Of a DNA stretch of 27,166 bases, positions 1,791 to 22,417 are shown one piece after another (the stretch's first letter is position 1; every line of letters starts with the position of its first letter). The notes under the pieces were generated by a model. That model did not search any database. It worked only from the letters and a program-made list of their open reading frames with translations, and was not told the DNA's origin. The DNA lies in IMG/VR virus record IMGVR_UViG_3300021964_000419, positions 1 through 27,166 of that record. One strand, given 5' to 3'. The stretch comes from a virus. Position numbers and translations under genes: made by a program.

Positions 1791-1821
1791 TTGCTTTTAA
1801 TCAATTTTTTTATTACCTTTG
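1791..1821 (+). promoter_or_regulatory. Strong Bacteroidota-type promoter for a small RNA
   Basis: TTG at 1791-1793, a 20-base AT-rich spacer, then TACCTTTG at 1814-1821. This is the best match in the window to the host consensus (TTG, 19-21 bases, TAnnTTTG). The expected start is close to 1827-1829. No gene begins within the next 300 bases, so the transcript is probably a non-coding RNA. Confidence 0.65.
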
Positions 1822-1826
1822 CAGTC

Positions 1827-1975: not shown

Positions 1976-2136
1976 TTTAAGTGGCTTTTTCTCTATTGCT
2001 GTCTCCGATATTTCCTATCTTTAAGCAGTGTTTTGGTTGATAACAACTACAGAGTAAACAACCACAGATTCCCTACCAAAAAAATAAATCAGTGCACCCT
2101 TTTACAGAAGTCGCAGAAAATTATTATGTTTGCGAT
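1976..2136. other. AT-rich intergenic stretch, no gene seen
   Basis: A 68-codon open frame crosses this stretch (1934-2140), but it begins inside the terminator hairpin and reads as low-quality hydrophobic sequence, so I do not call it a gene. A TAnnTTTG match (TATGTTTG, 2125-2132) lies at its right end without a TTG at the usual distance. Nothing else convincing was seen on either strand. Confidence 0.4.
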
Positions 2137-2636: not shown

Positions 2637-2668
2637 ATAACCACCTACTACTTAATTATATACCTTTG
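2637..2668 (+). promoter_or_regulatory. Phage promoter, member 1 of a 32-bp family
   Basis: ATAACCACC at 2637-2645, then TTAATTA, then TACCTTTG at 2661-2668. The -7 box is a perfect TAnnTTTG; the usual TTG at -33 is absent and its place is taken by the ATAACC box. The expected start is near 2674, 13 bases before the ATG at 2687. The same layout recurs at 5996, 8724 and 14519. Confidence 0.6.
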
Positions 2669-2686
2669 TTTAAAATTAGCAAAAAG

Positions 2687-2971
2687 ATGGAATTTAAGAG
2701 TTACGCAAAACTATCACAAGAAGACGTTCAAGCCACACAGCTCTCAAAGAGCGGGCTTAAAAACCTTGTCAAAACAAAGGCTAAAGTAGCCTCAAACATT
2801 CAAGTTGACCTAGCAGGAAAAACACCTCGACTAAGCGTTACAGCACCTAACGGAAGCAAATCAGTAGCTTACGCAGGAGACTTTCTTTTAAAGCACCCAG
2901 ACGGTTCATTTACTGTTGAGTCCAAAGATTCTTTTAAAGGCTCTTATGTAGAGACTAAAGAAGCTGAGTAA
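2687..2971 (+). CDS. Small phage protein with a GDFLLKHPDGSF motif
   Basis: A 94-aa protein. The ATG at 2687 is chosen because the in-frame ATG at 2621 lies upstream of the promoter at 2637-2668. The N-terminal part is Lys/Ser/Ala-rich (SQEDVQATQLSKSGLKNLVK); the C-terminal half ends with AYAGDFLLKHPDGSFTV and ESKDSFKGSYV. This last pattern (GDF-ll-pDGs-v-s-d-F---Y) is common in short phage proteins and in accessory domains, where it forms a small beta unit, but its function is not known to me. It opens the plus-strand block of nuclease and chaperone genes and is followed after 3 bases by the next gene. Confidence 0.7.
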   Translation: MEFKSYAKLSQEDVQATQLSKSGLKNLVKTKAKVASNIQVDLAGKTPRLSVTAPNGSKSVAYAGDFLLKHPDGSFTVESKDSFKGSYVETKEAE

Positions 2972-2974
2972 ACC

Positions 2975-3244
2975 TTGGAGTTCCCTTCTTTTGAAAATAT
3001 CAGAAAAGTTACTGTTGGTGACGTAAAAGACGGCATGACTTACCTTGTTGGAGGCTTTCAACGAAAAGGAAAAGTTAAAGTTGTCGCAATAGAAGCATTC
3101 CACACCCTAATGTATCACACCTCGGATGAGGTGATAATGTTATCTATTATTGTAAAAGATGTAGAAACTGGGGCTGTATATAAATGGTTTGACCTATCTT
3201 TGAGGGAAATTTCTAAGATAGAGTATTTTGATAAGTTACAATAG
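2975..3244 (+). CDS. Small beta-rich phage protein (89 aa), TTG start
   Basis: An 89-aa protein starting with TTG at 2975, three bases after the preceding stop; the first in-frame ATG would lose 20 residues of good sequence (EFPSFENIRKVTVGDVKDG). The body reads as alternating beta strands (MTYLVGGFQRKGKVKVVAI, EVIMLSIIVKDVETGAVYKW), like a small SH3- or KOW-type barrel. No catalytic motif is visible. Its end overlaps the next gene by 17 bases, so the two are probably translated together. No family recognised. Confidence 0.65.
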   Translation: MEFPSFENIRKVTVGDVKDGMTYLVGGFQRKGKVKVVAIEAFHTLMYHTSDEVIMLSIIVKDVETGAVYKWFDLSLREISKIEYFDKLQ

Positions 3245-4016
3245 ATACATTTTTGAAGTTCCTGAAAAGGATGCGTTTAAAAGAGGAGACCTGTACTTTG
3301 AAGCAAAGTTCGGCTCAGAGCACGACAACATGATTCACTACGGCAAGTTGGTTGAAAAACCAAAGAATGCCAAGCTGAAAATAAAAAAAGGAGAAATAGT
3401 TTACTTTTCCCACCTCGCTAAAAACTTTGATTCTCGAATTGAAAAAGACGGCAAGGTTTACTATTGCATAGACAGTGGGTTTGCCGAAGGGCAACACGAC
3501 CTCTCACAAATACTTCTTTGTACAACAGACAGACCCCTTGGAAACGTTACCATTGTTGAGCGAATCGAAGAGCCAGAGGAGAATTACAAGGTAGGCAGTA
3601 TCTTTCTAAAACCAAAGCCCGACACACTTGAAAACGAGTACAGGGTAGTTATGTCAAACAAGTTCGGCGTAGGTACGCACATAATCATAGTAGAGGGAGC
3701 GGACTACGACTTTGAAGATAAAGACCACAAAGAAATGATTGCTGTTCAAGACGAGAATATTGTGGCATCAATCCACAACGATGAGCTAGTACCTTACGGG
3801 AACTTTGCGATTGTAGAACCTGATGACGATAGAAGCGACGAAGACTTTGCTGAAAGAAACGGAGTGTTAGTTGAGAAAAGACGTGTTTTAACGGGGCGCG
3901 GAAAGTGGGGCGAAAGGAAGATTCTTTACCACAAAATAGAGTCAAATACGTTTGAGTTTAAAAAAATGCCGTTTGTTGGTGTTGAGAAAGAAGATATTTA
4001 CTATATTTGCGACTAA
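3228..4016 (+). CDS. Probable co-chaperonin with three tandem GroES-like barrels
   Basis: A 262-aa protein from TTG 3228 (MISYNRYIFEVP); the next ATG is at residue 35 and would cut the first barrel. I read three copies of a GroES-like pattern. Copy 1 (about 5-98) has HYGKLVEKP, then IKKGEIVYFSH and DGKVYYCIDS..QILLC. Copy 2 (about 107-180) has GSIFLKP, then GVGTHIIIVEGADYDF and EMIAVQDENIVASI. Copy 3 (about 184-262) has YGNFAIVEPDDD, NGVLVEKRR, KILYHKIES and VGVEKEDIYYI. Each ends in the GroES signature of a residue-contacting strand followed by an acidic-Ile turn (DENIVASI compared with GroES ESDILAIV). GroES is normally about 95 aa with one barrel; T4 gp31 is a phage single-barrel case. The role would be to help the host GroEL fold phage capsid protein. 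The fold call rests on pattern reading only. Confidence 0.5.
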   Translation: MISYNRYIFEVPEKDAFKRGDLYFEAKFGSEHDNMIHYGKLVEKPKNAKLKIKKGEIVYFSHLAKNFDSRIEKDGKVYYCIDSGFAEGQHDLSQILLCTTDRPLGNVTIVERIEEPEENYKVGSIFLKPKPDTLENEYRVVMSNKFGVGTHIIIVEGADYDFEDKDHKEMIAVQDENIVASIHNDELVPYGNFAIVEPDDDRSDEDFAERNGVLVEKRRVLTGRGKWGERKILYHKIESNTFEFKKMPFVGVEKEDIYYICD

Positions 4017-4018
4017 CG

Positions 4019-4360
4019 ATGAAGCAATACAAGAACTTATCCAAAGAAGAGTTACTAGAGATTATCTTTGTTTTAACAAGCGAGTCGTCTAAAATAAGAG
4101 CTTACACAGCTTTAAAAAAACAAGTGGACGGGATGGTTGAGTACTTAAACAAAAACCAACTAGCAAGCACCACAAGTCTATCTGACAAGGACGATAAAAC
4201 TTGGGACAGAGGCAAATCACTTTTAAAAGACCTTCCCGACCACATAACCCACCTAGAGAAGTTAGAGAAAGTTTTCTTTAGCACCGAAAAGTCCTACGTT
4301 GAAAAAGCGGCAGAAGGAAGTTTAGAGTCTTTTTTGTTAGACCGTGAAAAGGGTAAGTAA
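4019..4360 (+). CDS. Hypothetical helical protein (113 aa)
   Basis: I choose the ATG at 4019, two bases after the preceding stop, over an in-frame TTG 12 bases upstream. The 113-aa product is highly charged and helical (KQYKNLSKEELLEIIFVL at the N-terminus, then ITHLEKLEKVFFSTEKSYVEK near the end), with a polar Ser/Thr/Asp-rich middle (TTSLSDKDDKTWDRG). No metal motif, membrane segment or known domain is seen. Its last 17 bases overlap the GTG start of the HNH gene downstream, which suggests coupled translation. The function is unknown; its position next to two DNA-processing genes only hints at a DNA-related role. Confidence 0.7.
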   Translation: MKQYKNLSKEELLEIIFVLTSESSKIRAYTALKKQVDGMVEYLNKNQLASTTSLSDKDDKTWDRGKSLLKDLPDHITHLEKLEKVFFSTEKSYVEKAAEGSLESFLLDREKGK

Positions 4361-4703
4361 AAAACAATCGAAATCAAACCGAAGCGTATCAAAAGCGAAA
4401 GCGGAATTTTTGGAGGATTTTTTAGACGAGTGGGGTTACTTATTCTGTCGTGGATGTGGAACTTCAAGTGGACGCATAGATATTTCTCACCTAGTACCAA
4501 TAGGTTACAACAAGTCCTTAGAAAGCGAAAGCACAAATCTCACATTGCACTGCCGAACTTGCCACAGGATTTACGAAAACCAACTAGAGGGAGTGGAAAA
4601 GATGTTTGACTACAAAGAGAATTTAAGCCGAGTACAAGATTTGGACGAGGGATACTATAATTTAATAAAGAACAAACATGGCTTCACAATGGGCGAAATA
4701 TGA
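4344..4703 (+). CDS. HNH-family nuclease (119 aa), GTG start
   Basis: Starts with GTG at 4344, inside the end of the preceding gene. The N-terminus is very basic (KRVSKKQSKSNRSVSKAK). The core is a zinc-type HNH fold: CRGC at residues 35-38, then DISHLVP with His49 as the likely catalytic His, Asn65 in STNLTLHC, and the second pair CRTCH at 70-74. The spacing fits short stand-alone phage HNH proteins; NinG-type recombination nucleases have a comparable CxxC..H..N..CxxC layout, but the His is in a single HL rather than HH. It overlaps the exonuclease gene by 26 bases, so the two nucleases are probably made together and may act in the same replication or recombination step. Confidence 0.75.
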   Translation: MKRVSKKQSKSNRSVSKAKAEFLEDFLDEWGYLFCRGCGTSSGRIDISHLVPIGYNKSLESESTNLTLHCRTCHRIYENQLEGVEKMFDYKENLSRVQDLDEGYYNLIKNKHGFTMGEI

Positions 4704-5640
4704 CAAGTTAATACTTGAGCATTACAAGCATAACGAGAAAAACTTCATCAAAATAGCAAAAACTATTCTTGGGGAAGAAAAGACTACAAAAGATGTAGAC
4801 CTCTTAAGAACTTACGCTCGTAGATTAATAGATAGCCGAGGCTTACGAGATGTAAAGGGCGCTAAGGTGCTTATATTCGACATAGAGACATCTCACACGG
4901 AATACCAAACAAGAGTTTTCAGCCCTTGGAATCAAAACCTAAGACCCGACGACATAATAAAGCCTTGGTATATTTTGTGTTGGAGCGCAAAGTGGTTGTT
5001 TGAAGATGAGATTTACAACGCTAAGTGTTCTAAGAAAGAGGTGAAAAAGGGTGACGACAAAAGGATTGCTCAAGCTCTTTGGAACATGATGGACGAGGCT
5101 GATGTAGTAATTGCCCACAACTTAAATAAATTTGACAGAAAGATAGCCCAAACAAGGTTTTTAAAGAACGGTATGTACCTACCCTCACCTTACCAAACAA
5201 TAGATACTCTTTTACATGCAAGAAAGCAATTTAAGATTCCGTCAAACAGATTAGACTATTTGGGTGAGTATTTAGGAGTCGGTAGAAAGTTAGAAACAGA
5301 AAAAGGACTTTGGGATAAAGTAGAGGACGGAGACGAAGGAGCGATGGAGCGTATGCAAAGCTACTGTGATGTTGATGTTGAGCTTTTGGAAAGGGTTTAC
5401 CTTGAGCTTAGACCGTTTATTCAACCACATCCAAACTTAGGTCTTTTCATTGAAAACAACTTTGACCAAACGTGTCCTTCTTGCGGTGGAAACCACTTGT
5501 CTGTTATTGGTGAGTACGCAACAACGGTAAATACTTACGACGCTTACAGGTGTGATGACTGCGGAAGCCAAACAAGAGCGAGAAGAGCAAACACACCTTT
5601 AAAGTCAAATCAACACATAACTTCTAGTATTCCAAGGTGA
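4678..5640 (+). CDS. DnaQ-type 3'-5' exonuclease with C-terminal zinc ribbon
   Basis: A 320-aa protein from ATG 4678. An N-terminal helical region (1-58) precedes an RNase H-like exonuclease: Exo I motif FDIET with Asp68 and Glu70; Exo II motif AHNLNKFD with Asp153; Exo III motif YCDVD with Tyr229 and Asp233 (YxxxD type). These acidic residues bind the two catalytic metals in proofreading exonucleases. Near the end two Cys pairs, CPSC (266-269) and CDDC (292-295), form a zinc ribbon, then a basic tail (SQTRARRAN). The polymerase part of a family A or B enzyme is missing, so this is a stand-alone exonuclease for replication, recombination or host DNA breakdown. It is the last gene of the tightly overlapping block. 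Confidence 0.85.
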   Translation: MASQWAKYDKLILEHYKHNEKNFIKIAKTILGEEKTTKDVDLLRTYARRLIDSRGLRDVKGAKVLIFDIETSHTEYQTRVFSPWNQNLRPDDIIKPWYILCWSAKWLFEDEIYNAKCSKKEVKKGDDKRIAQALWNMMDEADVVIAHNLNKFDRKIAQTRFLKNGMYLPSPYQTIDTLLHARKQFKIPSNRLDYLGEYLGVGRKLETEKGLWDKVEDGDEGAMERMQSYCDVDVELLERVYLELRPFIQPHPNLGLFIENNFDQTCPSCGGNHLSVIGEYATTVNTYDAYRCDDCGSQTRARRANTPLKSNQHITSSIPR

Positions 5641-5680
5641 GGGCGTATAAATACTACATTAACCCTTTAAAACAACTATA

Positions 5681-5779
5681 ATGATGGGCGAAAACTACAA
5701 AGATAAAAGCGCTATAAACAATGGAAAAATAAAGGTGGTAAAAGGTAATTTTATTTGGGCAAAACGAAGAAAGAACTAA
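5681..5779 (+). CDS. Possible 32-aa small protein
   Basis: ATG at 5681 (a second ATG follows directly) opens a short frame reading MMGENYKDKSAINNGKIKVV and on to a basic end (WAKRRKN). It fills the gap after the exonuclease. The basic composition and A-rich leader fit a real small phage protein. However, the adjoining frame 5742-5996 looks coding well ahead of its first start codon, so the two may be one gene split by a frameshift. Confidence 0.4.
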   Translation: MMGENYKDKSAINNGKIKVVKGNFIWAKRRKN

Positions 5780-5782
5780 GGT

Positions 5783-5790
5783 TAAGTTTG
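5783..5790 (+). promoter_or_regulatory. Weak TAnnTTTG promoter element
   Basis: TAAGTTTG matches the -7 consensus and would start RNA near 5797, just ahead of the TTG at 5808. The nearest TTG upstream (5755-5757) is 25 bases away, too far for the usual spacing, and the ATAA box of the phage promoter family is missing. Confidence 0.2.
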
Positions 5791-5807
5791 TACCTTATAT
5801 TGGTTTA

Positions 5808-5996
5808 TTGCAAGAGTTTGTAGGGTATGATAGTAATTTGAAAGCTAATATAGTTTATAAAAAGTGCCTGCAAAACCGAAAGTTTGAGATAGCTAAACAG
5901 ATAAAAGAAAAGTACAAATTAGTAGATAAGTACGATGATATGGTTATGGTATTAGCCATTGCTTCGATGGCTCAAGACAAAGCGGATAACACATAA
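5808..5996 (+). CDS. Small hypothetical protein (about 62 aa)
   Basis: From TTG 5808 the frame encodes 62 aa (QEFVGYDSNLKANIVYKKCL .. MVMVLAIASMAQDKADNT). The frame stays open and protein-like back to 5742 (VILFGQNEERTKVKFVPYIG), yet no standard start codon occurs before 5808. The true N-terminus is therefore uncertain: a non-standard start, or a frameshift from the 32-aa frame before it. The C-terminus ends in a short hydrophobic helix (DDMVMVLAIASMA). The stop TAA (5994-5996) touches the promoter ahead of the portal gene. No known family. Confidence 0.5.
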   Translation: MQEFVGYDSNLKANIVYKKCLQNRKFEIAKQIKEKYKLVDKYDDMVMVLAIASMAQDKADNT

Positions 5997-6027
5997 TAAC
6001 CACCATTATATTAATTACCTACCTTTG
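5996..6027 (+). promoter_or_regulatory. Phage promoter, member 2, ahead of the portal gene
   Basis: ATAACCACC at 5996-6004, TTAATTA, and TACCTTTG at 6020-6027. The 9-base upstream box, the TTAATTA core and the TACCTTTG are identical to member 1 with identical spacing. The start is expected near 6033, 15 bases before the portal ATG at 6048. No TTG is present at -33. Confidence 0.65.
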
Positions 6028-6047
6028 CAATAGAGCAAAAAAAGGCA

Positions 6048-8438
6048 ATGTTTAGTTTCCCCGATTTACTTGCGTCTAAGTCAGATAAGAAAAGCAAGAA
6101 ATATATTTTAGATTACGCTAAAGCCATTTGGTACGAACAGTATCAAGGTGACAGCTATCACTCTTCCGAAGACAGGCTTCGTAAGATAGAAAACATAAAT
6201 TGGGCAACAGGCCAAGAAGACATCACCTACCTTCACTCTTGCGTTTCAACAGGAGATGAATCTTACGCAAACATAAATTGGAACGTAGCCAACCCTATTG
6301 TAACCCTTGTTAACGACTTTGTAAACAGAACAACCTCTAGGGACTACGACTTACTTTGTGAGGCTTTAGACCTGACAAGCAAGGGAGAGTACGACAAAGA
6401 ACTAGCAAAAAGAAAAGGTGAACTTCGCTTAAAAAAGGAAGCTGCTGACTTTGCTCAAAACGGCATTATGTTAATGCCTGAGGAGCAAATGGAGAAAACC
6501 CCCGACTCTATTGAAGAGATTGAAATAGACATGGAGCTAAACTACAAAGCCCCGTTTGAAGAGGCTTACGAAGCCGCTTTGGGTCAAGTGTTTCAAAACA
6601 ACAGAGATTATTGGACGCGAAGAAAATACGCCTTTAACTTAATGACAAACCAAATTGCCGCCTCTAAAACAGAGTACGACCAATTTGCAAACCCAACAAT
6701 TAGAGCCGTTCATATTCCAAACTTTATTTACTCTTACTTCACAGAAGAAGATGCTTCCGATTGGAGGTACTTTGGAGAAGTGCAGGAACTAGAGATTTCC
6801 GAGGTAATGATTCAAACCAACGGAGAGGTTGACAAAGAAGAGCTTTACAGAGCCGCCCACGCTTACCAAGGAGAAATGGGTAACAGAAATTGGGGCATGG
6901 GAAAGTACGACTCTTGGAGGTCTCAGGTTAGTTGGAGTGACATACAAGATATGAAAGTCTTGGTTCTTGACTTTATTTTCAGAAGCTCAGATAAATTCAA
7001 GTGGAGAAAGAAATTAAAAGGAGACTCGTTTTTCTTTGACATGGTAGACGAAAGCTACACCAAGGAAAACAAAAGAAATGTTTCAGAGGTAGTCGAAAAA
7101 ACCGTAGAGACTATTTACAAAGGAAAGTGGATTATAGACACGGACATGGTTTATGATTACGGAATGGCAAAAAACTTACTCCGTAAAAAGATAGATGGTC
7201 TTTACGAGTCAAAGGTTGAGTGCCCTTACCGAGTGGTTGCCCCAGATATTCTTGACATGGTAACTAAGTCCAAAGTAGAGCAAATGCGCCCTATTGCGGA
7301 GATGATGATGATTCTCGACTTAAAAAGACAGCAACTTGTTAACGAGTCTCGTCCTATGGGTATTGCCATTAACGTTGACGCTATTCAAGCAGCAGGAGAG
7401 TCGTATGACGGGTACGACGAGATGGAAGCTCAAAAGATGTTTGACGAGGTAGGTACTATTTACTACTCGTTAAAAACAGAAGACGGCGCACCTATCAACG
7501 ACCCAAAACCAATCAGAGAGCTTGTGAACGGTATTCCAGAAAACGTACTTCTACTTCAGCAGATGTACGACTATGGTTTGCGTAAGCTTTACGAGATAAC
7601 AGGGTTTAACCAAACCACCTCTATTGATAAGGACGCTGCGGTTGGTATAGAAAAGATAAAGGAGAAAGCTCACCAAAACTCCATCAGACACCTTACAGAA
7701 GCTTACACTAAGTTAATTGAGGCAACGGCAGAGAACGTTGTTTTAATGGTAAGAGAATCTATCAATATGTCTGTTGGCATGGACAAAGCTTACGCTAAAG
7801 CTATTGGTAAGGAGCGCGTTGAAATGATTAAGTTAACCAAAGAGTTAACAATGGCAGAAATCGGCGTAAAAATACAGTACCGCCCAACTGACCTAGAAAA
7901 AGAACAACTCGAAAGAGATTTAGGAATAGCCCTTGACCGCAACCAAATATCTATTGACATGGCTATGGTCGTAAGAAGGGTTGCCGCTCAAAGTATAAAA
8001 GTTGCAGAAAGGGTGATGCAACACCTAATGAAGAAGTTCAGAAAGCAAGCCCAAGAGGAGTCAATGATGCTTCAACAGCAAAACGCTCAGGTACAATCAC
8101 AAGCGGCTATTACTTCCGAGGAGGAAAAACGAAAAACACTCAGGGCTAAAACAGACGAAGAAATAAGAAAGCTAGAGATAGAATACTTATTGAGAAACAA
8201 CTTAATGAAGTCTGAGTACTTTGAGAAAAAAGGACTAGAGGTAATAAAAGGAGAAATAGACATTGAGTTAATCAACGAAAGCTCCAAAGACGCTGACGGG
8301 TCGCTAGATATTTCTACTCCGTCAAGCCCTAAGCAAGGAGGTAAAGGTTCTCCAAAAGCACCAACCCCTAGAGTAGTACCGCAACCTCAAGACGACGCTC
8401 AAAGAAGAGTCGCGGCTAATTCTCAACCAAAAATTTAA
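6048..8438 (+). CDS. Portal protein
   Basis: A 796-aa protein from ATG 6048. In the virion twelve copies would form the ring through which DNA is packaged and ejected. It has the size, composition and gene position (before scaffold, capsid and terminase) of the large portals of podoviruses; no single-residue signature exists for this family. The middle (about 430-620) carries the typical portal stem/wing run: VEQMRPIAEMMMILDLKRQQ, then YDYGLRKLYEITGFNQTT, SIDKDAAVGIEKIKEKAHQN and a long helix (LTEAYTKLIEATAENVVLM). The last 130 residues are a charged coiled coil (EEEKRKTLRAKTDEEIRKLE), then a Pro/Ser/Gln-rich flexible tail. Its stop overlaps the stop of the opposing regulator gene. Portals near 800 aa are known from Bacteroidota podoviruses, including crAss-like phages; I cannot say how close this one is. 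Confidence 0.85.
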   Translation: MFSFPDLLASKSDKKSKKYILDYAKAIWYEQYQGDSYHSSEDRLRKIENINWATGQEDITYLHSCVSTGDESYANINWNVANPIVTLVNDFVNRTTSRDYDLLCEALDLTSKGEYDKELAKRKGELRLKKEAADFAQNGIMLMPEEQMEKTPDSIEEIEIDMELNYKAPFEEAYEAALGQVFQNNRDYWTRRKYAFNLMTNQIAASKTEYDQFANPTIRAVHIPNFIYSYFTEEDASDWRYFGEVQELEISEVMIQTNGEVDKEELYRAAHAYQGEMGNRNWGMGKYDSWRSQVSWSDIQDMKVLVLDFIFRSSDKFKWRKKLKGDSFFFDMVDESYTKENKRNVSEVVEKTVETIYKGKWIIDTDMVYDYGMAKNLLRKKIDGLYESKVECPYRVVAPDILDMVTKSKVEQMRPIAEMMMILDLKRQQLVNESRPMGIAINVDAIQAAGESYDGYDEMEAQKMFDEVGTIYYSLKTEDGAPINDPKPIRELVNGIPENVLLLQQMYDYGLRKLYEITGFNQTTSIDKDAAVGIEKIKEKAHQNSIRHLTEAYTKLIEATAENVVLMVRESINMSVGMDKAYAKAIGKERVEMIKLTKELTMAEIGVKIQYRPTDLEKEQLERDLGIALDRNQISIDMAMVVRRVAAQSIKVAERVMQHLMKKFRKQAQEESMMLQQQNAQVQSQAAITSEEEKRKTLRAKTDEEIRKLEIEYLLRNNLMKSEYFEKKGLEVIKGEIDIELINESSKDADGSLDISTPSSPKQGGKGSPKAPTPRVVPQPQDDAQRRVAANSQPKI

Positions 8439-8704
8439 CGAGGCACGGTTAAGCAAACCTCAAAAAAGGTAACAAGGTTTAGGTTAAACGCAGCAGCGAT
8501 TCTAACCAAGTACTCTATTTTAAAGTCTTGTTTACCGCTTTCCATTGTTGATATGATGTTTTGTTGAACGCCCGAATACCACTCAAGGTTCTGCTGTGTG
8601 ATTCCGTGTTTCTCTCTTAAGAACTTAATTCCACGTCCCACAAACTTCTTTGCAATCCTTAAATCTAATTCTAGTTGGTCTGGGTTGTTGTCTACGTCTT
8701 TCAA
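8435..8704 (-). CDS. XRE/Cro-type helix-turn-helix regulator
   Basis: An 89-aa protein read against the virion genes. The start is TTG at 8704-8702; no ATG is available upstream in frame, and the promoter at 8735-8762 would start RNA about 24 bases before it. Residues 24-72 are a classic XRE domain: GIKFLREKHG, then ITQQNLEWYSGVQQNIISTM with the recognition helix over SGVQQNIISTME, and ESGKQDFKIEYLVRIAAAF. Such proteins bind DNA as dimers and usually repress their own and the facing promoter. Its promoter overlaps that of the scaffold-capsid block, and its transcript would run antisense into the portal gene (the stops overlap). Likely a repressor or timing switch of the capsid block; target unproven. 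Confidence 0.8.
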   Translation of the reverse strand: MKDVDNNPDQLELDLRIAKKFVGRGIKFLREKHGITQQNLEWYSGVQQNIISTMESGKQDFKIEYLVRIAAAFNLNLVTFFEVCLTVPR

Positions 8705-8723
8705 TGGCTTATGTGTATATATG

Positions 8724-8755
8724 ATAAAACCCTACAAATATAGTGATTATTTTTG
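8724..8755 (+). promoter_or_regulatory. Phage promoter, member 3, ahead of scaffold and capsid genes
   Basis: ATAAAACCC at 8724-8732 and TATTTTTG at 8748-8755, exactly the 32-base span of the other members. The start is near 8761, some 20 bases before the ATG at 8782. No TTG at -33. It is more divergent than the members at 2637 and 5996, and lacks TTAATTA. Confidence 0.5.
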
Positions 8756-8762
8756 TAACCAA
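8735..8762 (-). promoter_or_regulatory. Promoter of the XRE regulator gene
   Basis: On the minus strand: TTG (8762-8760), a 17-base spacer, TATATTTG (8742-8735). It fits the host-type consensus. It overlaps the plus-strand promoter at 8724-8755, so both cannot be used on the same DNA at once. The two -7 boxes are extended into a dyad, TACAAA (8733-8738) and TTTGTA (8752-8757), a possible operator. Confidence 0.5.
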
Positions 8763-8781
8763 GTTTAATTAAAGAAAAAAG

Positions 8782-9960
8782 ATGGATAACGAGCAAAAAG
8801 CATCGCTATTAAAGCAGCTTCACTCAAAAGAAGAAGCGCCAAAACAAGAAGAAATTAAAGCGGAAGTAGAGCAATCTACGGAAGCTACTAAGGCTCAAGA
8901 AGCCGATAAAGACAGTTCTTTGAAAGACTCAAGTAACACAGAGTCAAATACAGAATCCACTCAAGAAGAGGTAGCCTCGCAAGAGACTGCCACTACTGAG
9001 GCCACCACTGAACAAACCTTGGAAGACCACCAAGAAACGTTCGATTGGAAAGCCGAAGCTGAGAAGAACGGGTATGTCGCCAAGGATGGATACTACAACT
9101 TAGATGAAGACGAATACATCAAAAAGTTAGTAGAGTTCAAACAAAACGGCATTGACATTACAAGCCCTGACTTCCTTCTTGAGCAGAATGTTGATTACGC
9201 TAAGTACAATCCCGAAGTCCCAAAGGATGCCCTTGAGGTTATCGCCAAAGACTTAAAGGTTTCTAATCCTGACGCAACTCAGGATGACATAAACTACTTA
9301 GTGGAAAGAGAGTTTGGTATTCTTTACGAAAACACTCCGACTCAAAGAGATGACGAACTTGATGACGAGTACCGAGATAGGCTTAATAAGTTTAACTCGG
9401 ACAAAAGGGATGCTGAAGTTCAGTCCAGATTTAAAGCTCGCCAAGCACTAAAAAACTTGACAGCTAGACAGGAAGAACTAAGGCTACCAAAACAAGAAAT
9501 ACAAAATACTCTAACTCAACAAGAAATAGAAGCACAAAGAAAAGGGTTTAAAACTCAAGTCAAAGAAGCTTTTAAGGATTTTGATTCTATCAACGTGAAG
9601 GTCGGAGACAATGACTATTCACTTGAAATACCCACCGAAATTACAAAGAGTTTAGGAAGCGATTTGTTGGAGAATGTAATATTTGAAAACAAGGCTTTCT
9701 CAAGCTACGTTAAGGAGGATGGTAATATTTCTTACCGCGAACTAGGAGAAGACTACGCATGGTTCAAACCTGAAACCCGAAGCATCTTAATTGCAAAACT
9801 ATTAAGTCAATCAAGTGCCGAGGCAACAGAAAAGGTAGCAAAGAGTATCAATAACGCGGAATTGCCGACTAAACCTTCTGCGCCAAGCAAAAGTCCCGAA
9901 CAAACTTTAACGGGAAAAGCGCTTTTGGCTTATCAGATGAGGAAAAGGAGGCAAAATTAG
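8782..9960 (+). CDS. Capsid scaffolding-type protein
   Basis: A 392-aa acidic protein from ATG 8782, placed between portal and major capsid genes, the usual scaffold position. The first 90 residues are low-complexity and rich in Glu, Thr, Ser and Gln (EATKAQEADKDSSLKDSSNT). A mixed middle follows (WKAEAEKNGYVAKDGYYNLD), then a charged helical region (TARQEELRLPKQEIQNTLTQ), and a short basic C-terminus (AYQMRKRRQN). A disordered acidic N-terminus, central coiled coil and basic C-terminal helix is how scaffolds that bind the capsid protein are built, as in P22. No protease motif is seen. The function rests on position and architecture rather than on conserved residues. Confidence 0.65.
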   Translation: MDNEQKASLLKQLHSKEEAPKQEEIKAEVEQSTEATKAQEADKDSSLKDSSNTESNTESTQEEVASQETATTEATTEQTLEDHQETFDWKAEAEKNGYVAKDGYYNLDEDEYIKKLVEFKQNGIDITSPDFLLEQNVDYAKYNPEVPKDALEVIAKDLKVSNPDATQDDINYLVEREFGILYENTPTQRDDELDDEYRDRLNKFNSDKRDAEVQSRFKARQALKNLTARQEELRLPKQEIQNTLTQQEIEAQRKGFKTQVKEAFKDFDSINVKVGDNDYSLEIPTEITKSLGSDLLENVIFENKAFSSYVKEDGNISYRELGEDYAWFKPETRSILIAKLLSQSSAEATEKVAKSINNAELPTKPSAPSKSPEQTLTGKALLAYQMRKRRQN

Positions 9961-9993
9961 AATTATTAACAAAAACTAAAAACGTAGAAAAAA

Positions 9994-11418
9994 ATGGCTA
10001 CAACTTTTAACAGAACGCCAACCAACCAAAACTACCTCAACTCTCTTATTGTTGACGGAAGTTACACTGGTGGCTTAACATCATCTATGCCAGAGGTGGA
10101 CGACGAATTGACACGTCCCTTTGGAATGGGTTATTTATCAAGCTTAGTTTCCCATATTGGAAACAAGAACGTGGTAAAGAACTCTCACTATTCTCACGCG
10201 GAAGAAAACAGAATCCGTGACGTAATCGTTGCAACTGCTACGGCGGGTGCTGCTAACGCTTCAGTAACTTTCACTGTAGACGCTACTAAAAGAGCTTCTA
10301 TCTCTGAGAGCGCTGCTCCTGAGTACATTGCTACAGGAACTACTGATGTGACTATGCCACAGAAGGATGACGTAATTCTTGTTCCAGACGGTTCTAACGG
10401 ATGGGTTCAGTGTGTTGTAACAAGCACAGTTGACGGGTCTTTCCAATTTACTGCTGTTCCAAAAATTACAGGAGAAAACATCCCAACGGTAACAACTGCT
10501 GTTGAGATTCCTATTGTTGGAAACCAATTCGGTGAGTTCTCAGACGAGCCTGAAGCAGTAAACCCAACGCTTACTTCTTACACCAACAACACTCAAGTTT
10601 TCCGTAGACTTGCGAAAGTTTCAAGAACGGCTATGAACCAACTTACTTGGTTTGACAATCTTGGACAAGGAAACAACGAGTCTTACTGGTTTTACGAAGG
10701 TGTTCGTACACAACGAGCTAACCTACAAAACGACAAGGAGACGACTCTTTTAGTAGGCCAAGCGGTTACTAACACAACTCTTGCAAACACAGCAGGCTTT
10801 GAAACAAACAAAGCTACAAGTGGTTTGATTCCGTTTATTGAGGCGGGTGGACAAAGAGAGCAGTACACAGCAGGTTCACTTGCTTTGACTGACCTTAAAT
10901 CCATGTCTCTTAAACTTTACAAGCAAAGAGGTTCTACCGAAAACATGCTTGTTGGTGGACATGACCTTACAATGGAAATCAGTGACTTGCTTCGTACAAG
11001 TCCTGGTCTCGTAGATGGTGGTGTTAACTACGCAGGTATCGGAGGAGAAGAAAGAGCAGTAAGCTTAGACTTTGCTTCGTTTAAGTACGGAGGTATCTCT
11101 TATCACTACAAGCCACTAGAGGTAATGACAACTCCTGAGCTTTTGGGCGCAGAAGGATTGACTTATAAAAACATGGGTCTTGTTATTCCACTTGGTAACG
11201 TAGTAACTTCAATGGATGAGTTCGGTAACGATACTGCGTCTGTTCCTAACTTGAGAATTAACGTTCTTGAAGACAAAGAACACGGAGATGCTGAATACAT
11301 CGAAGTAGCTCGTCAAGGGCTTGCAACAGATGGTAGTGACGGAATGTACGTTAACTTACTTTCTGAATGTGGATTTGAAGGTTTCGCGCCACAGCGATTC
11401 GGACAGTTCTACGTCTAA
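9994..11418 (+). CDS. Major capsid protein
   Basis: A 474-aa protein from ATG 9994, just behind the scaffold-type gene, before a strong terminator. The length and mixed alpha/beta sequence suit an HK97-fold capsid protein. The N-terminal arm (1-70) is followed by an inserted beta-rich domain (about 75-180; many Val/Thr strands such as ASVTFTVDATKRASI), then a helix region with FRRLAKVSRTAMNQL, a spine-helix-like segment (YWFYEGVRTQRANLQNDKE), and a C-terminal A-domain-like part with SLKLYKQRGSTENMLVGG and YHYKPLEVMTTPELLG. Several regular glycine turns and no low-complexity stretches fit a high-copy shell protein. Codons are more uniform than in neighbouring genes, as expected for high expression. 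Function inferred mainly from order and length. Confidence 0.8.
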   Translation: MATTFNRTPTNQNYLNSLIVDGSYTGGLTSSMPEVDDELTRPFGMGYLSSLVSHIGNKNVVKNSHYSHAEENRIRDVIVATATAGAANASVTFTVDATKRASISESAAPEYIATGTTDVTMPQKDDVILVPDGSNGWVQCVVTSTVDGSFQFTAVPKITGENIPTVTTAVEIPIVGNQFGEFSDEPEAVNPTLTSYTNNTQVFRRLAKVSRTAMNQLTWFDNLGQGNNESYWFYEGVRTQRANLQNDKETTLLVGQAVTNTTLANTAGFETNKATSGLIPFIEAGGQREQYTAGSLALTDLKSMSLKLYKQRGSTENMLVGGHDLTMEISDLLRTSPGLVDGGVNYAGIGGEERAVSLDFASFKYGGISYHYKPLEVMTTPELLGAEGLTYKNMGLVIPLGNVVTSMDEFGNDTASVPNLRINVLEDKEHGDAEYIEVARQGLATDGSDGMYVNLLSECGFEGFAPQRFGQFYV

Positions 11419-11439
11419 CAATCAAAAGGTAACACATTT

Positions 11440-11480
11440 GGGGGAGAGCCTTTTAAATCTCCCCCTTTTTTAATTTAATT
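11440..11480 (+). terminator. Strong intrinsic terminator after the capsid gene
   Basis: Perfect 8-bp stem GGGGGAGA (11440-11447) with TCTCCCCC (11458-11465), a 10-base loop, then TTTTTTAATTTAATT. It begins 21 bases after the capsid stop. No clear promoter follows before the next gene at 11492, so that gene and the terminase probably depend on read-through. Confidence 0.85.
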
Positions 11481-11491
11481 GAAACAAAAAC

Positions 11492-12559
11492 ATGAAACAA
11501 AAACCAAGAGGCGTTTACTTTATCGCCATAGAAAAAAAAGACCCTGCAATGGGCAGCAAATACGGAATTAACGTTTCGTCTTCATCAGTATCAATTCCTA
11601 AAGTTTGTATGGCTTATTCCTCCGAGAAAAAGGATGTCGTTATGATTGGTTACGACCCAACAAAAAAAGACATTTACGTGGACGAGTGGGGTGATAGATA
11701 CAACGGAAAAGACATTAAGGAAGTTACCGAAATGATTGACCGTAACGCTGATAAAATTAAAATCAGCCAAACAAAAGGAAAGTACGTAGCTGCCGCAGAT
11801 TGGAAGCTAGCCAAGTACCTTAGAGCCTGTCCTTTCAATAAAGATGTAAAACACGAAGCTAACCCAAAAACAACACCTACTTTTTACGAGCTAAACTTTG
11901 AAGCTGACGCTAAGAAGAAAGTTCAAGACGATAAAGCTCAAACACAAGCAAAAGCTTTAGTTTACGCTTCTGACTTTGAAACCAAAAGAGCTTACTGTAT
12001 AGCGAAGAGTATCCCTACAACAGACACTCACGGCGCACCTATTTCGGATGCAGAGCTAGAAGTTAACTTGGTTTACAAAGCCTCTCAAGAGCCTGAAGAC
12101 TTCCAACGAGAGTTTAACTCAGCGGAGATTTGGAACGCTTACTACATCAGAACAGCGATGGAGCGAGGGTTTATTTACGAGCAAGACGGCGGCAGAGTTT
12201 TAGTTGACAACGTAGGTACTATAGTTAAGTCTGCTCCTGTTGGGCAAAGTGCTATTGTTGCTTTGGCTAAAGGCGCAGCTACAAACAAGCCAAAGGACGC
12301 TTTAGCGATTGACTCTTTAAAGGATATGATTGAAGGTAAGCAAGAAAAGAAAACCCCAGTGGAAACAACAACCACTAACGAGGACGTTATCTTTAAGGCG
12401 CTTAACTACAACTTGATTGAAAAGTCTGACGACATCTTCCTTTTTGAGGGCAAGAACTTAGGTAGCTCCAAAACAGGATTATCCAAAAGGTTAGAGCAAG
12501 AGGGAGTTTTAGAAAAGCTCACTAAACTTGTAGAGCTTGAGGACGATAACCAAAGCTAA
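11492..12559 (+). CDS. Hypothetical protein between capsid and terminase genes (355 aa)
   Basis: A 355-aa protein from ATG 11492. The N-terminus is beta-rich (GVYFIAIEKKDPAMGSKYG, DVVMIGYDPTKKDIYVDEW), and the centre is helical and Lys/Ala-rich (FEADAKKKVQDDKAQTQAK, DAELEVNLVYKASQEPEDF). A Thr/Lys-rich linker (KQEKKTPVETTTT) leads to a C-terminal 55-residue unit (VIFKALNYNLIEKSDDIFLF) that looks like a separate small domain. I see no catalytic, metal or membrane motif. By position it could be a head-completion protein or fill the role of a small terminase subunit, which is otherwise not seen here, but nothing in the sequence shows this. The stop overlaps the TTG start of the terminase by 23 bases. 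Confidence 0.75.
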   Translation: MKQKPRGVYFIAIEKKDPAMGSKYGINVSSSSVSIPKVCMAYSSEKKDVVMIGYDPTKKDIYVDEWGDRYNGKDIKEVTEMIDRNADKIKISQTKGKYVAAADWKLAKYLRACPFNKDVKHEANPKTTPTFYELNFEADAKKKVQDDKAQTQAKALVYASDFETKRAYCIAKSIPTTDTHGAPISDAELEVNLVYKASQEPEDFQREFNSAEIWNAYYIRTAMERGFIYEQDGGRVLVDNVGTIVKSAPVGQSAIVALAKGAATNKPKDALAIDSLKDMIEGKQEKKTPVETTTTNEDVIFKALNYNLIEKSDDIFLFEGKNLGSSKTGLSKRLEQEGVLEKLTKLVELEDDNQS

Positions 12560-14522
12560 GGAAGCTTGTAAGATAGCTTACGAATCTTTTGAAAGAAACA
12601 GGAACATAAGGGGGTACGAGGTAACGCTACCCCAACCCCCTCCTATTTCTTCCATAGCTAACTATGGCGAAAAAGACGAGTCCAAGCGTAAGTTTCCTTA
12701 CAAGGAACTCCCCGAAAACGTAACAAAGGAAATAGCCACGCGAGAATTAGACCGTCGAAAAAACGGCTTTTGGTTCTTTAACGGCTCTGACTCTAACTTA
12801 AACCTAGAGTACATAACGGGGCATCACTACATGATGCTTCAATACTTCCCTATTGTAAGAGAAGACGGCACAACGGGTAACGCTGACTTTGTTGATGCCC
12901 AACAAGATGCTTACTTTGTTTGGGAATGCCTTGAGAATAACCCCAAGAGTTACGGGATGTTGATGTTCTCAGGTCGTCGTTTCTTTAAGACCACCTTTGC
13001 AGTAAACATTGGTTACTGGCGAACCACAGGAGGCTCTAACCGAAACTTCGGGGTACAATCAAAGACTTACAAGGATTCCAAAGAAACTGTTTTTAGAGAC
13101 AAGATAGTAAAAGCTTGGCGAAATATGCACCCCTTTTGGAGACCTGCCGACACGGGCAACCAAAACCCGACAGGCTCTATTGAGTTTACTGTTCCTAGAA
13201 AACGAAGCGCCACAAAGAAAGTAACACAAGTTCTTGACTCTTACATTTTAACCTATCCAAACAAGGACGAGGCAGTGGACGGTACACGTAACTACACTAT
13301 GTACCAAGATGAGATAGCTAAAACAGAAAAAGATGTTGACCCAAGAAACAGATACTACGTAGCAAGGGAAACTTGCTCTATGAGAGATAAGGTAGTCGGG
13401 AAACTTATTCTGACCACTACTGTTGACGAGATGGAGAAAAAATCCTCTCAAGAAGTAAAAAAACTTTGGGATGAAAGTGATTGGAGCGACAGAAGTAAAG
13501 AAACAGGCAGAACCATTAGTGGGCTTGGTCGGTACTTTAACCCCGCAGACAGGGGGTTTATTGTTGACCAATGGGGATATTCAGACGAAGCGGCTGCAAG
13601 AAAACACCACTTAGCGGAAAGAAAAGCTAGGTCGGGTAGTACTTTAATATCTTACATAAGAAAGTACCCGTTAAGCGAAGATGAGATTTTCCTTTCAAGC
13701 ACCGACGCCTCTATTGTCGCGGTGGAAAAGGTTGAGGAGCAACTAAGCTACAACGAAAAAAACAACGTTAGCACCGTTCTTTATAAATTAATGTGGGACG
13801 AGGTAGACGTTTCGGTAAAAGCTATTCCCGTGTCTTTTGAAAAAGACGATACGGGTGATACGGGAGGTTACTTTGAGTTTGGAGAGTTACCCGAAGAAGA
13901 GGCTCGGAACAAGTACGCTTGGAGTGGTTCTTTGAGAGTTCCAATAGGAAGGGCTATTAAGTTAGGGGTTGACCCCGTTGACCACAAAAGCGTTTCTTAC
14001 GGAGACGGCTCTAGGGTTGCTATGTTAGGATTAAAGTACAAATCCCACTGGACGGTAAGGTACGTTACTAGACCCGATAACCCAAACGATTTTTACGAAG
14101 ACATGATTAAGTGCTGTGTGTTTTGTTCGGCGGAGTTAAACGTGGAGAACCAAAAGCAAGGCTTGATTAACTACTTTAGAGAACGGGGTTACGAGAAGTA
14201 CCTTACACACAACCCCCTTGAAAAAAACCACCTAAAAAGACAAGCTACCGTTGGAACACCCACTACTGGAACAAACCAACGGGAGCAGTGCATGGACAAG
14301 TTAGTGATTCACACTTGGGAGCAAATAGGAAGCCAAGAAGGTGGTTATGGTGTTTGTCCGTTTGAAGAAACTTTAAGAAATTGGTTGGCTTTTGAGTCTA
14401 ACGATTGGACAAAATACGATGAGACGGTTGCTACTATGATGGCTATTTTAGCTTGGGAAACACCAAAAGTTCCACCCCGACCTTCAAAAAAATCTCTTCC
14501 AAGGCGTAAATTCCGAAAATAA
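12537..14522 (+). CDS. terL: Terminase large subunit
   Basis: A 661-aa DNA-packaging motor, from TTG 12537. A stop codon lies two codons upstream in this frame and the next ATG is deep in the protein, so TTG is the only good start. ATPase part: Walker A variant SGRRFFKTT (about 145-153), Walker B MYQDE (about 255-259, acidic pair D258/E259), and coupling motif ILTTTV (291-296). Nuclease part with RNase H fold: LGVDP (Asp479), NVENQ (Glu537) and KYDETVA (Asp628), the usual three metal-binding acids. The tail is basic (KKSLPRRKFRK). It would pump DNA through the portal and cut the concatemer. The R-R-F-F-K-T-T loop lacks the common Gly before Lys, as in several other terminases. Its stop overlaps the next phage promoter. 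Confidence 0.93.
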   Translation: MRTITKAKEACKIAYESFERNRNIRGYEVTLPQPPPISSIANYGEKDESKRKFPYKELPENVTKEIATRELDRRKNGFWFFNGSDSNLNLEYITGHHYMMLQYFPIVREDGTTGNADFVDAQQDAYFVWECLENNPKSYGMLMFSGRRFFKTTFAVNIGYWRTTGGSNRNFGVQSKTYKDSKETVFRDKIVKAWRNMHPFWRPADTGNQNPTGSIEFTVPRKRSATKKVTQVLDSYILTYPNKDEAVDGTRNYTMYQDEIAKTEKDVDPRNRYYVARETCSMRDKVVGKLILTTTVDEMEKKSSQEVKKLWDESDWSDRSKETGRTISGLGRYFNPADRGFIVDQWGYSDEAAARKHHLAERKARSGSTLISYIRKYPLSEDEIFLSSTDASIVAVEKVEEQLSYNEKNNVSTVLYKLMWDEVDVSVKAIPVSFEKDDTGDTGGYFEFGELPEEEARNKYAWSGSLRVPIGRAIKLGVDPVDHKSVSYGDGSRVAMLGLKYKSHWTVRYVTRPDNPNDFYEDMIKCCVFCSAELNVENQKQGLINYFRERGYEKYLTHNPLEKNHLKRQATVGTPTTGTNQREQCMDKLVIHTWEQIGSQEGGYGVCPFEETLRNWLAFESNDWTKYDETVATMMAILAWETPKVPPRPSKKSLPRRKFRK

Positions 14523-14550
14523 CACTTACTAATTTTCCTTTGTATCTTTG
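14519..14550 (+). promoter_or_regulatory. Phage promoter, member 4, ahead of the tail block
   Basis: ATAACACTT at 14519-14527 and TATCTTTG at 14543-14550, again a 32-base span with no TTG at -33. It overlaps the terminase stop codon. The start is expected near 14557, 22 bases before the ATG at 14579. Confidence 0.55.
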
Positions 14551-14578: not shown

Positions 14579-15802
14579 ATGGCAACTTCAAGTACAGCTA
14601 TAACTTACACAACTGCGTTAGCTTACAGCTCAAAGACAATTACTTTTCAAGATACCTCTCCAACTTACGGTTCGGGCGACCTTTCTTGGGCGGAAGCAAG
14701 TAACGCAATATTAGCAAAAATAACTTCTCCTGACGGGGTGGTTGATTATAACAACACTAACGGCTCAAGCCCCGACGCAACGGGCGTAGACGCGAGCTTT
14801 ACCACAAACCTACCAGTTGACGGCGACGGAAACGTAAAGCAAGGAAGGTATACTGTAAGGCTTACTTACTTTGACGTAACAGACACAGGGCTCTCAAACG
14901 CTTTTTACCGAGATTACGAATTTGAAGTTTCTTACGCTAGTCCTGTTCACGATATTGATATTTCTCACAGTGTCATTAACCCTGTTTTCTTCAAGTCAGT
15001 AGACAACACGGTTTACGATAAAAACGCAGTTACGCCAACAATTACAAGAGACCACAGGCTTTACTATCCAAGCGCTATTGGAGGGTTTAACCAAGTAACA
15101 ACAAAAACTTTAAACACTAACCTTTTCTACACAGGGGTAAGCGAGGTTTACCTAAAAAGCACACTTACTTACACCTTTACAAGTGGTAACTACTCAGACG
15201 CTAGTGGAACACCTGTTAACTTCTCAGTAACAGACATCATCACATCTAGGGTAGATTACACGGTAAGCGGAGTAACTTCTACTTGTGACTTCTACTGTGC
15301 GATGAAAGAGGTTTACAATAACTACTACACTTACAAAACTACAGACGTTGGAAGAGCAAACGGATATTGGGCGCAATACCAAGAAGCAAACTTTGCTTGG
15401 CAAATGTTGGACGAAAGCATCAACTGTGGTAAGAGTGTTGATATGCAAACTTATGTTGACCGCCTTAATATTATATTGGGTGATGCGTGCGGTTGCTCTG
15501 ATTCTACAACGTCTGTTCAAGTTGTAGGAATAGGAACAGTAACAAACATTGACAGGGTTTACGAACACACGACACCTACGCCAATAACCGCTTACACTTT
15601 CTTAATTTCTGAAGGTGCTACTACTTCTTCTACTTCTACTGACGCTGCTTTGGTTGGTCTTACTTTCCAAAAAGACTTTATAGTAACGGCAGACGGAAGC
15701 ACTGTAACGGGTGGAAGTTTTAACAGTGTAACAGGAGAATACACCTTTCCTTTTACAGTAACGGCTGGAACTGAAATTCAAGCAATCATCATAAAACCTT
15801 AA
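14579..15802 (+). CDS. Beta-rich virion protein (407 aa)
   Basis: I place the start at ATG 14579 (MATSSTAITYTTALAYSS); an open frame 39 bases longer would begin inside the promoter. The first 140 residues are Ser/Thr/Asp-rich beta strands like an Ig- or jelly-roll-type domain (QGRYTVRLTYFDVTDTG). The middle (about 235-310) changes to a helical, Cys-containing unit (STCDFYCAMKEVYNNYYTY .. LNIILGDACGCSDS). The C-terminal 90 residues are again beta-rich and end in TAGTEIQAIIIKP. As the first gene of the tail block, it may be a head fibre, a decoration or an adhesin-like tail protein. I do not recognise the family. The five Cys residues clustered in the middle are unusual for a phage virion protein and may bind metal or form disulfides. 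Confidence 0.75.
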   Translation: MATSSTAITYTTALAYSSKTITFQDTSPTYGSGDLSWAEASNAILAKITSPDGVVDYNNTNGSSPDATGVDASFTTNLPVDGDGNVKQGRYTVRLTYFDVTDTGLSNAFYRDYEFEVSYASPVHDIDISHSVINPVFFKSVDNTVYDKNAVTPTITRDHRLYYPSAIGGFNQVTTKTLNTNLFYTGVSEVYLKSTLTYTFTSGNYSDASGTPVNFSVTDIITSRVDYTVSGVTSTCDFYCAMKEVYNNYYTYKTTDVGRANGYWAQYQEANFAWQMLDESINCGKSVDMQTYVDRLNIILGDACGCSDSTTSVQVVGIGTVTNIDRVYEHTTPTPITAYTFLISEGATTSSTSTDAALVGLTFQKDFIVTADGSTVTGGSFNSVTGEYTFPFTVTAGTEIQAIIIKP

Positions 15803-21600: not shown

Positions 21601-22402
21601 TGTGGATAGTTCTAACGCCCCTACTTATGTTATAACTATGACAGACCTTGATATGGAGGATGGTACTTTTGATAGGTTGGTAGATTTTGGAACAGTACCC
21701 ATAAAAAAAATTGTTGGGATGAATTACAATTCTCCTATTTTCGGAATGACGGTAACGGCTAGTGACTCTTCTGCGAAAACAATAACCGTTGATATAGGCA
21801 CTTCTATTGGAAGTGATGCAGCTTATACCATATACGTTCCTTACGTTGATACATTATCTTTCTCCAACGATAGGGGAAGATGGATAAGTCTTCACGATTT
21901 TAAGCCAGAATGGATAGGCTCAAGTGCCAATTCACTTTGTACCTTTAGTGGCGGTAAAATATACGTGCATCAGCTAAGCAGTTACACGACAGATTTTTTT
22001 GGTGAGAACTTTAACTATTGTAGGTTCTACGAAGATGTTTACGGTGTTTACGAGGTTTACAACTCCTTCTTGGAGTTTCCGTTTAACAAAGAACCAAACA
22101 GAAGCAAAGAACCTATAACTGTTTGGACAGACTCAAACCAAGTTTACAGCATTGACTACGCAGTTAACAACGATGGGCAAATAACAGAAACAGCCCTTGG
22201 GGACTACGAAGAGTTTGAAGGGGCTTATTGGTCGCCTATTTTCAGAGACAAAACAACGTCGGTTGTACCGTATCCACTACTTGAGGGTGATGAGATGAAA
22301 GGTAAGTATCTTAAAGTAAGGCTAAAAACTGTAACTGACGGAGCACAACAGTCTTCAATATCTAGCACGACCTTAAAGTACAATAATAGTAACCTAACAT
22401 AA
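18659..22402 (+). CDS. Large tail protein, nozzle/stabilization type (1247 aa)
   Basis: A 1247-aa protein from TTG 18659, again in a TTGA overlap with the preceding gene. The N-terminus VRVFTGGLNKDDDPRFVPNG, followed by DWIDALNVSI, matches a start common to large tail proteins of Bacteroidota and other podoviruses (F-GG-n-D-dpR--p-G-y--a-N). The rest is nearly all beta: YTYWFIHNQNDNHVILRYEY, SGKSYLIWTDNNEQPSML and many similar strands, as in a propeller-based tail nozzle. Residues about 162-235 hold an HGF-type module shared with the gene at 16470. Near residues 950-1010 a run of PYPYPYNDNADGNNNKIYGG marks a flexible loop. It would close the tail tip and hold DNA in place. There is no signal peptide or hydrolase motif. 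An exact family needs structural comparison. Confidence 0.75.
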   Translation: MKEEVRVFTGGLNKDDDPRFVPNGDWIDALNVSIANQEGVNGNIVAEIGAEQISLYQSTGSASYSLPSGTNTSIGSFDDPTRGYTYWFIHNQNDNHVILRYEYSTNIARLVWEDNSYDQVYNPYNGDYQGGYSASTAYSKEEIVSDSGSFYRLLREDYVAQVTASAISTGADTITTNTNYFKTGDQVTTSAAIGSISAGDYYVIYVNATTIQLATTFGNAFSGTAINITGTLSGTPTITDSIGLSNESVWTDLSDTLNFSLSYPIYASTVVESSGKSYLIWTDNNEQPSMLNVTNIASFGTYYPYIERRFLDLYAFQPQHPPTAAYASDTSVDQNNTAQKTLQFRCAWKLRDGRTTVMSPISRIPMPTVSNYNDIQIDNKVTIKLPLYCGDSSNVIDEILVYVKENGDNNTGDWYLVDSVDVSEETPVEQDYPFSDTYMWYISYDFFNTSTLSAVPTNVQDQIQDFVPLKSKTLAISGNGRLLLGNNEDGFDFDTSTLDVSINAITRSSGLATTDPPESGFKKACRYPIGIVYGDRSGRLSNVYRNDDMVFDVPYWSGTNQGAVQCELQVGHAPPSWSEFWIPVYAGNQTMTNWVQSAVDSVHTTSFLLKDVFDYNSNKTDAGYNYAFSSGQNARMIYDTSGSAFLAGTNGDARVFGASSYLLQADITAFTTALANDDLVEVYTKKGNVSSSEELIWYEMGWSFKIETDKNGNKVHGGKNEFTNNFSPSRSQIIGSGAQDCVVVLDQADCYVRFADDVESTASGYKTFEYTDLFPFKESDVSTIGRPNVFNPDYKKQRREQEIVYSEPLVDNTDFFGINRFFDASFNDSLNNEYGDLNVLHSDGNELLCVQKTKTSRMLANKNFIFTADLQSLDIQSNTFLSKPQYFPQEFGTQNPESFAEYGGVKFWVDRLKGAVLRCAGSQIENIGQIKMSTYFEQNLPYPYPYNDNADGNNNKIYGGYSIRDNSYYITMDAHKIIKRIVDSSNAPTYVITMTDLDMEDGTFDRLVDFGTVPIKKIVGMNYNSPIFGMTVTASDSSAKTITVDIGTSIGSDAAYTIYVPYVDTLSFSNDRGRWISLHDFKPEWIGSSANSLCTFSGGKIYVHQLSSYTTDFFGENFNYCRFYEDVYGVYEVYNSFLEFPFNKEPNRSKEPITVWTDSNQVYSIDYAVNNDGQITETALGDYEEFEGAYWSPIFRDKTTSVVPYPLLEGDEMKGKYLKVRLKTVTDGAQQSSISSTTLKYNNSNLT
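19142..19363 (+). repeat. HGF-type beta module, copy B
   Basis: Codes residues about 162-235 of the large tail protein: TGDQVTTSAAIGSISAG, YYVIYVNATTIQLATT, GNAFSGTAINI. It aligns with copy A at 17046-17265. Here the HGF start is replaced by NYFKTGDQV, so this copy is the more diverged at its beginning. Confidence 0.6.
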
Positions 22403-22417
22403 AAAACATTAAATTTG
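22386..22417 (+). promoter_or_regulatory. Weak promoter-like element
   Basis: TAAATTTG at 22410-22417 fits TAnnTTTG, and ATAGTAACC lies at the position of the ATAA box. The expected RNA start falls almost on the ATG at 22425, so any transcript would be nearly leaderless. It may be chance in AT-rich intergenic sequence. Confidence 0.2.

Follow-up and report, generated by a model that had tools for sequence, protein, structure and literature searches.

A conserved -33 box points to a candidate phage-specific class of late promoters in a clade of Bacteroidota phages

We describe a family of promoter-like sites in two related phage species, in which an ordinary host-type -7 element, TAHHTTTG, stands behind a clade-specific box placed where the host -33 element would be. 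These sites are probably the late promoters of the clade, served by host polymerase carrying sigma-A together with a phage-supplied contact at the -33 box. The motif, its fixed spacing, its conservation, its strand and gene context, and its absence from the host genomes searched all point in this direction, and from them we infer promoter activity, late timing and a phage factor.

Late-strand sites in the window and in a second species

The window, a virus record of 27,166 bases (IMGVR_UViG_3300021964_000419), holds part (27 kb) of the genome of a phage that we call A. An IMG/VR search with its terminase and capsid returned a near-identical fragment (G001) and five further contigs at ~73-75% protein identity to the window. 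These five represent one second species, B, with 98.3-99.99% mutual identity over long shared stretches, and two contigs overlapping at both ends yielded a species B circle of 60,236 bases. DNA identity between B and the window is ~70% (about 65-74% where the two align). The plus strand of B carries late genes (portal, capsid, terminase, tail and lysis) and the minus strand early genes (primase/helicase, single-strand binding protein, exonuclease and GroES); in both species these labels are drawn from gene content, not from expression. A search among viral contigs for the early region of A gave no match. A and B are best read as a two-species clade of Bacteroidota phages. The structural block of B closes with a giant gene (27156-34316; 2386 aa) that matched nothing in PHROG and nothing in Pfam above a curated cut-off; its orthologue in A, at window 24627-27166, seems to be truncated by the end of the window.

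The window holds five putative late promoters:

2637..2668, plus strand: P1, -33 box ATAACCACC (2637-2645), -7 box TACCTTTG (2661-2668); ahead of a block whose first gene encodes 94 aa (2687-2971) and which includes an HNH nuclease and a DnaQ-like exonuclease; orthologue at B 2609
5996..6027, plus strand: P2, -33 box ATAACCACC (5996-6004), -7 box TACCTTTG (6020-6027); ahead of the portal gene, 6048-8438; orthologue at B 6235
8724..8755, plus strand: P3, -33 box ATAAAACCC (8724-8732), -7 box TATTTTTG (8748-8755); ahead of a gene of 392 aa (8782-9960), itself 5' of the capsid gene; orthologue at B 9404
14519..14550, plus strand: P4, -33 box ATAACACTT (14519-14527), -7 box TATCTTTG (14543-14550); next gene 14579-15802; orthologues at B 15145 and in variant G005
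22386..22417, plus strand: P5, -33 box ATAGTAACC (22386-22394), -7 box TAAATTTG (22410-22417); next gene 22425-23330; orthologue at B 24082

The sites at 2637, 5996, 8724 and 14519 on the plus strand had been picked out in an earlier, sequence-only reading of the window, and all four are present. The fixed 32-base span that it proposed also holds, with the correction that ATAA begins 31, not 32, bases before the final G of TAnnTTTG. Its count of four copies overlooked P5 (22386-22417), an ATAG form with one mismatch to the pattern, which emerged from a one-mismatch search and inspection against B, where the box at 24082 is likewise ATAGTAACC. The nine-base box and TTAATTA core that it saw at both 2637 and 5996 are indeed common to these two sites in the window, but neither the full box nor the core is conserved in B. 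At P4, the ATAA (14519-14522; B 15145-15148) shares bases with the TAA that ends the terminase gene, in A and B alike.

The ATG of the following gene lies 18, 20, 26 and 28 nt past the final G at P1, P2, P3 and P4, respectively, and the -7 box of P5 ends 7 bases before the next ATG. In F. johnsoniae, the primary-sigma -7 consensus is TAHHTTTG, transcription starts 4-5 nt downstream, and the -33 element is weak (PMC6847099). With such host starts after the G, the leaders would measure ~13-24 nt, in line with what had been claimed, although the start would be nearer than the 6-7 bases then assumed.

A search of species B with the motif, which the sequence-only reading had recommended for relatives of the phage, found further copies in the whole genome, all ahead of late-strand gene starts. 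Exact-pattern sites lie on the plus strand at 2609, 6235, 9404, 15145, 34898, 36164 and 40686, and the ATAG form at 24082. All eight stand immediately 5' of gene starts; five are orthologous to window sites and three are additional. They serve the nuclease block, the portal, the pre-capsid gene, the post-terminase gene, the tail and, last in position, the endolysin. One more exact match, at B 55550 on the minus strand, is inside coding sequence and scores low.

Three host-type promoters with TTG, which had been named as a contrast to the family, are real; they are listed here together with the HTH regulator gene:

1204-1175, minus strand: TTG-N19-TATGTTTG, ahead of minus-strand genes
1791-1821, plus strand: host-type, with TTG; downstream lies a stretch that is conserved in an alignment with B and has no gene of at least 80 aa
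8762-8735, minus strand: TTG-N17-TATATTTG, promoter of the HTH regulator gene, with its expected start at the P3 box; same geometry in B (9444, minus strand)
8435..8704, minus strand: Cro/C1-type HTH_3 protein of 89 aa (Pfam HTH_3, E 2e-8), conserved in B (9116-9382)

Apart from the HTH_3 protein, no DNA-binding regulator was seen to be common to A and B. The TTG promoter of the HTH_3 gene and P3 face each other head-on within window 8704-8782 and have ~35 bases in common, as they do at B 9383-9463, so that each start falls within the control region of the other. In B, none of the early minus-strand genes is served by the new class, and several, like the HTH gene, have TTG promoters. The view of a single family with a fixed span and a box in the -33 register, next to early and regulatory genes that carry TTG promoters instead, is thus borne out. 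The phage factor and the simultaneous timing of the blocks that were proposed with it are putative.

Immediately after the strong TTG promoter at 1791, ~190 bases are conserved (window 1822-2010, plus strand; B 1182-1365), with GAGTTAAAAGTTCTC.GT.GGCGAGTTAGTGGCGTGCCTAA and further blocks identical in A and B. Rfam and tRNA searches of this stretch gave no match; it is possibly a phage non-coding RNA.

Shape, statistics and distribution of the motif

The window has four matches to ATAAN20TANNTTTG and none to the reversed pattern; 100 dinucleotide-preserving shuffles put the expected number for the former at 0.16 +/- 0.39 (maximum 2). Together, A and B hold 13 sites, which count as eight independent positions because the two species are related. 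In every one of the 13, the start of the box lies 24 bases from the start of the -7 element, the site is on the late strand before a gene start, and the -7 element keeps TA and TTTG with no G between (TAHHTTTG). None has TTG or TTTG in the -33 register, where ATAA or ATAG is found.

Comparison of the five orthologous pairs indicates which positions are held. The first four box bases (ATAA or ATAG) are identical at 20/20 positions and the six fixed -7 bases at 30/30. The three box-internal bases agree at only 5/15 positions and the spacer at 47/75, together 52/90, a difference from the box that is significant (Fisher p 7e-5); the flanks, too, agree at only about half of their positions. Since the box is conserved while its internal bases and the spacer have diverged, the signal can be written as (A/G)ATA(A/G)NNNCC fixed 24 bases before TAHHTTTG.

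Because the box had been picked by eye, we also scored every 4-mer at each offset between -60 and -4 relative to the 104 TAHHTTTG elements of A and B (14,592 tests). ATAA at -24, present in 12 copies, came out on top (corrected p 4e-8). The same scan of Panino, a distant relative, placed TTGG at -23 and TTTG at -24 among the top signals; as the latter is the offset of ATAA, the new box fills the -33 slot of host-type promoters. The absence of TTG by which the class was originally set apart is insufficient as a definition, since RNA-seq of F. johnsoniae shows the host -33 element to be weak (PMC6847099); it is the positive box that defines the class.

Across 149 Bacteroidia genomes, the pattern stood at chance level (8 matches vs 6 for the reversed control), and the three matches in G126 all lie inside genes; a host-promoter origin of the box was rejected on this basis. 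There was no excess of the pattern in elemoF, Panino, phi38:1, phi18:3, Gundel_1 or Calle_1. When all IMG/VR contigs were scanned twice with 16-base patterns, promoter-like placement recurred only in species B. The matches outside B look like chance by position, which speaks against a wider distribution. Among them, the unrelated phages L267 and L278 show an isolated lookalike ahead of a gene, and neither contig holds a class that would support it.

By inspection, elemoF (NC_055853.1) has gene-start promoters at 26094, 36837, 39355 and 40194 that are TTG-less, with TTATTTCG-like spacers before TATCTTTG, and Panino (PP540027.1) has sites of the same look at 36510, 42025, 46712 and 52628, around its portal and terminase genes. 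These structural-gene promoters, which look like a class of their own, have no TTTG at -33 and carry TATCTTTG after T-rich, TTTCG-like spacers; several other Panino promoters carry TTTGGT. In elemoF, the scan detected ATTT ahead of the -7 element (corrected p 0.01). This suggests that the elemoF/Panino phages and the A/B clade have a two-class logic in common and that their late signals differ.

The reader of the box and rival explanations

In the mechanism that we favour, host RNA polymerase with its primary sigma factor would recognise the ordinary -7 element TAHHTTTG, while the clade-specific (A/G)ATA(A/G)NNNCC box would stand where the host -33 TTTG belongs, 24 bases from the -7 element. 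An early phage-encoded protein would most likely contact the box at the face normally taken by sigma region 4, and the polymerase would thereby be re-aimed to the structural and lysis genes, as by MotA/AsiA at T4 middle promoters. The B proteins that we scanned included no member of an RNA polymerase family, and a six-frame search of three whole contigs (G000, G002 and G006) gave no match to Sigma70_r4 (PF04545; 14/14 control genomes positive), so the host polymerase is the likely reader. The same absence of sigma-70 region 4 in these three led us to rule against a phage sigma factor. Some points weigh against the mechanism: the -7 element alone may suffice, as the host -33 element is often weak (PMC6847099), and the class comes from two species of one clade, with an imperfect box at P5.

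Candidate readers encoded by B are the HTH_3 protein, a protein with a Bac_DnaA_C domain and a helical protein of 122 aa (53329-53697), whose AF2 model, with a pLDDT of 56, is of too low confidence to be informative. The early genes at B 51198-51797 and 53017-53376 encode a stand-alone DnaA domain IV (Bac_DnaA_C, E 2e-24) and a GroES-like co-chaperonin. Recognition of a DnaA box is expected to involve a CAC core. Most of the boxes described here are without one, and a DnaA-type reader is therefore not favoured even though B encodes the Bac_DnaA_C protein.

The strongest alternative, which we nevertheless consider unlikely, is that these are ordinary host sigma-A promoters, at which the ATAA box needs no phage factor, being recognised by the sigma factor of the particular host or by the alpha subunit of its polymerase, while any late timing comes from something else. 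The -7 elements do fit TAHHTTTG, and the weakness of the -33 element in F. johnsoniae (PMC6847099) leaves room for it. However, the class is at chance level in the 149 Bacteroidia genomes, these phages have TTG promoters at their early and regulatory genes, and a box with conserved C bases in a fixed register is unlike an A+T-rich upstream preference.

We give less credence still to the box ATAANNNCC acting as an operator for a phage repressor such as the HTH_3 protein, which would hold the late genes off early and leave later transcription to the -7 element alone. Both A and B have kept the HTH_3 gene, and in each of them the P3 box lies at the expected start of that gene's own TTG promoter, an autoregulatory position. 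Yet the box takes the exact TTTG register with fixed spacing at every late promoter, neither of which an operator needs, and inspection of the sites shows that it is not palindromic, contrary to what a dimeric C1-type protein would lead one to expect. Chance or recent copying, as A+T-rich coincidences or one duplicated cassette, has the shared nine-base box and seven-base core of P1 and P2 in its favour, but it is refuted in practice by the comparison with B, where orthologous pairs in a ~70%-identical relative keep the boxes over diverged spacers and three extra sites lie elsewhere in the genome, and by the shuffle expectation of 0.16, which makes it highly improbable.

Relation to known promoter systems and significance

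A host polymerase re-aimed by a phage contact at the -33 box would have its closest counterpart in T4, whose middle promoters keep the -10 element and replace the -35 element with a MotA box centred at -30 (PMC2988021). Like the A/B class, they combine a host -10-type element with an upstream box of phage type, which sits in the -30/-35 register and varies little in its spacing (PMC2988021, PMC6755090), and they serve one temporal gene class, a timing that for A/B is taken from gene content. In contrast, the A/B box is (A/G)ATA(A/G)NNNCC and not the MotA box (a/t)3TGCTTtA, the host sigma factor would be the Bacteroidota sigma-ABfr with TAHHTTTG, the phages belong to another lineage, and the genes served are structural and lysis genes instead of middle genes. 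About 30 B proteins scanned gave no Pfam match to the MotA/AsiA families. The likeness to T4 is, by analogy, one of way of working and not of family membership.

Bacteroidota primary-sigma promoters, TTTG / TANNTTTG (PMC6847099), resemble the A/B sites in the TAHHTTTG -7 element, the start expected 4-5 nt downstream and the short A-rich leader; they differ in that the A/B sites have (A/G)ATA(A/G)NNNCC, and no TTTG, in the -33 register. The late promoters that we propose for elemoF and Panino are likewise found at structural genes, with TATCTTTG and no TTTG at -33, whereas they lack the ATAA box and have ATTT (elemoF) or, by inspection in both, TTATTTCG-like spacers. The crAss-like phages phi14:2 and crAss001 are also Bacteroidota phages whose late genes are thought to be read by the host polymerase (PMC8375218). 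Their early genes, however, are served by an RNA polymerase carried in the virion (PMC8375218), whereas the scanned B proteins included no polymerase family. In the literature that we searched, there was no account of a promoter class that is specific to phages and uses the Bacteroidota -7 element.

We tentatively extend this to a broader proposal, which we hold as possible and somewhat doubtful: a phage protein unrelated to MotA/AsiA would replace recognition by sigma-ABfr region 4 and read (A/G)ATA(A/G)NNNCC at -33 as the mark of a dedicated late class, with other lineages using differently built TTG-less late promoters. Little has been described of transcription control in Bacteroidota phages. 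A defined box in an exact register offers a direct assay for the missing factor, lets the late operons of this phage clade be called from sequence, and could serve Bacteroidota genetics as an inducible late-promoter part. If true, the broader proposal would mean that Bacteroidota phages redirect the host RNA polymerase in a manner not described before.
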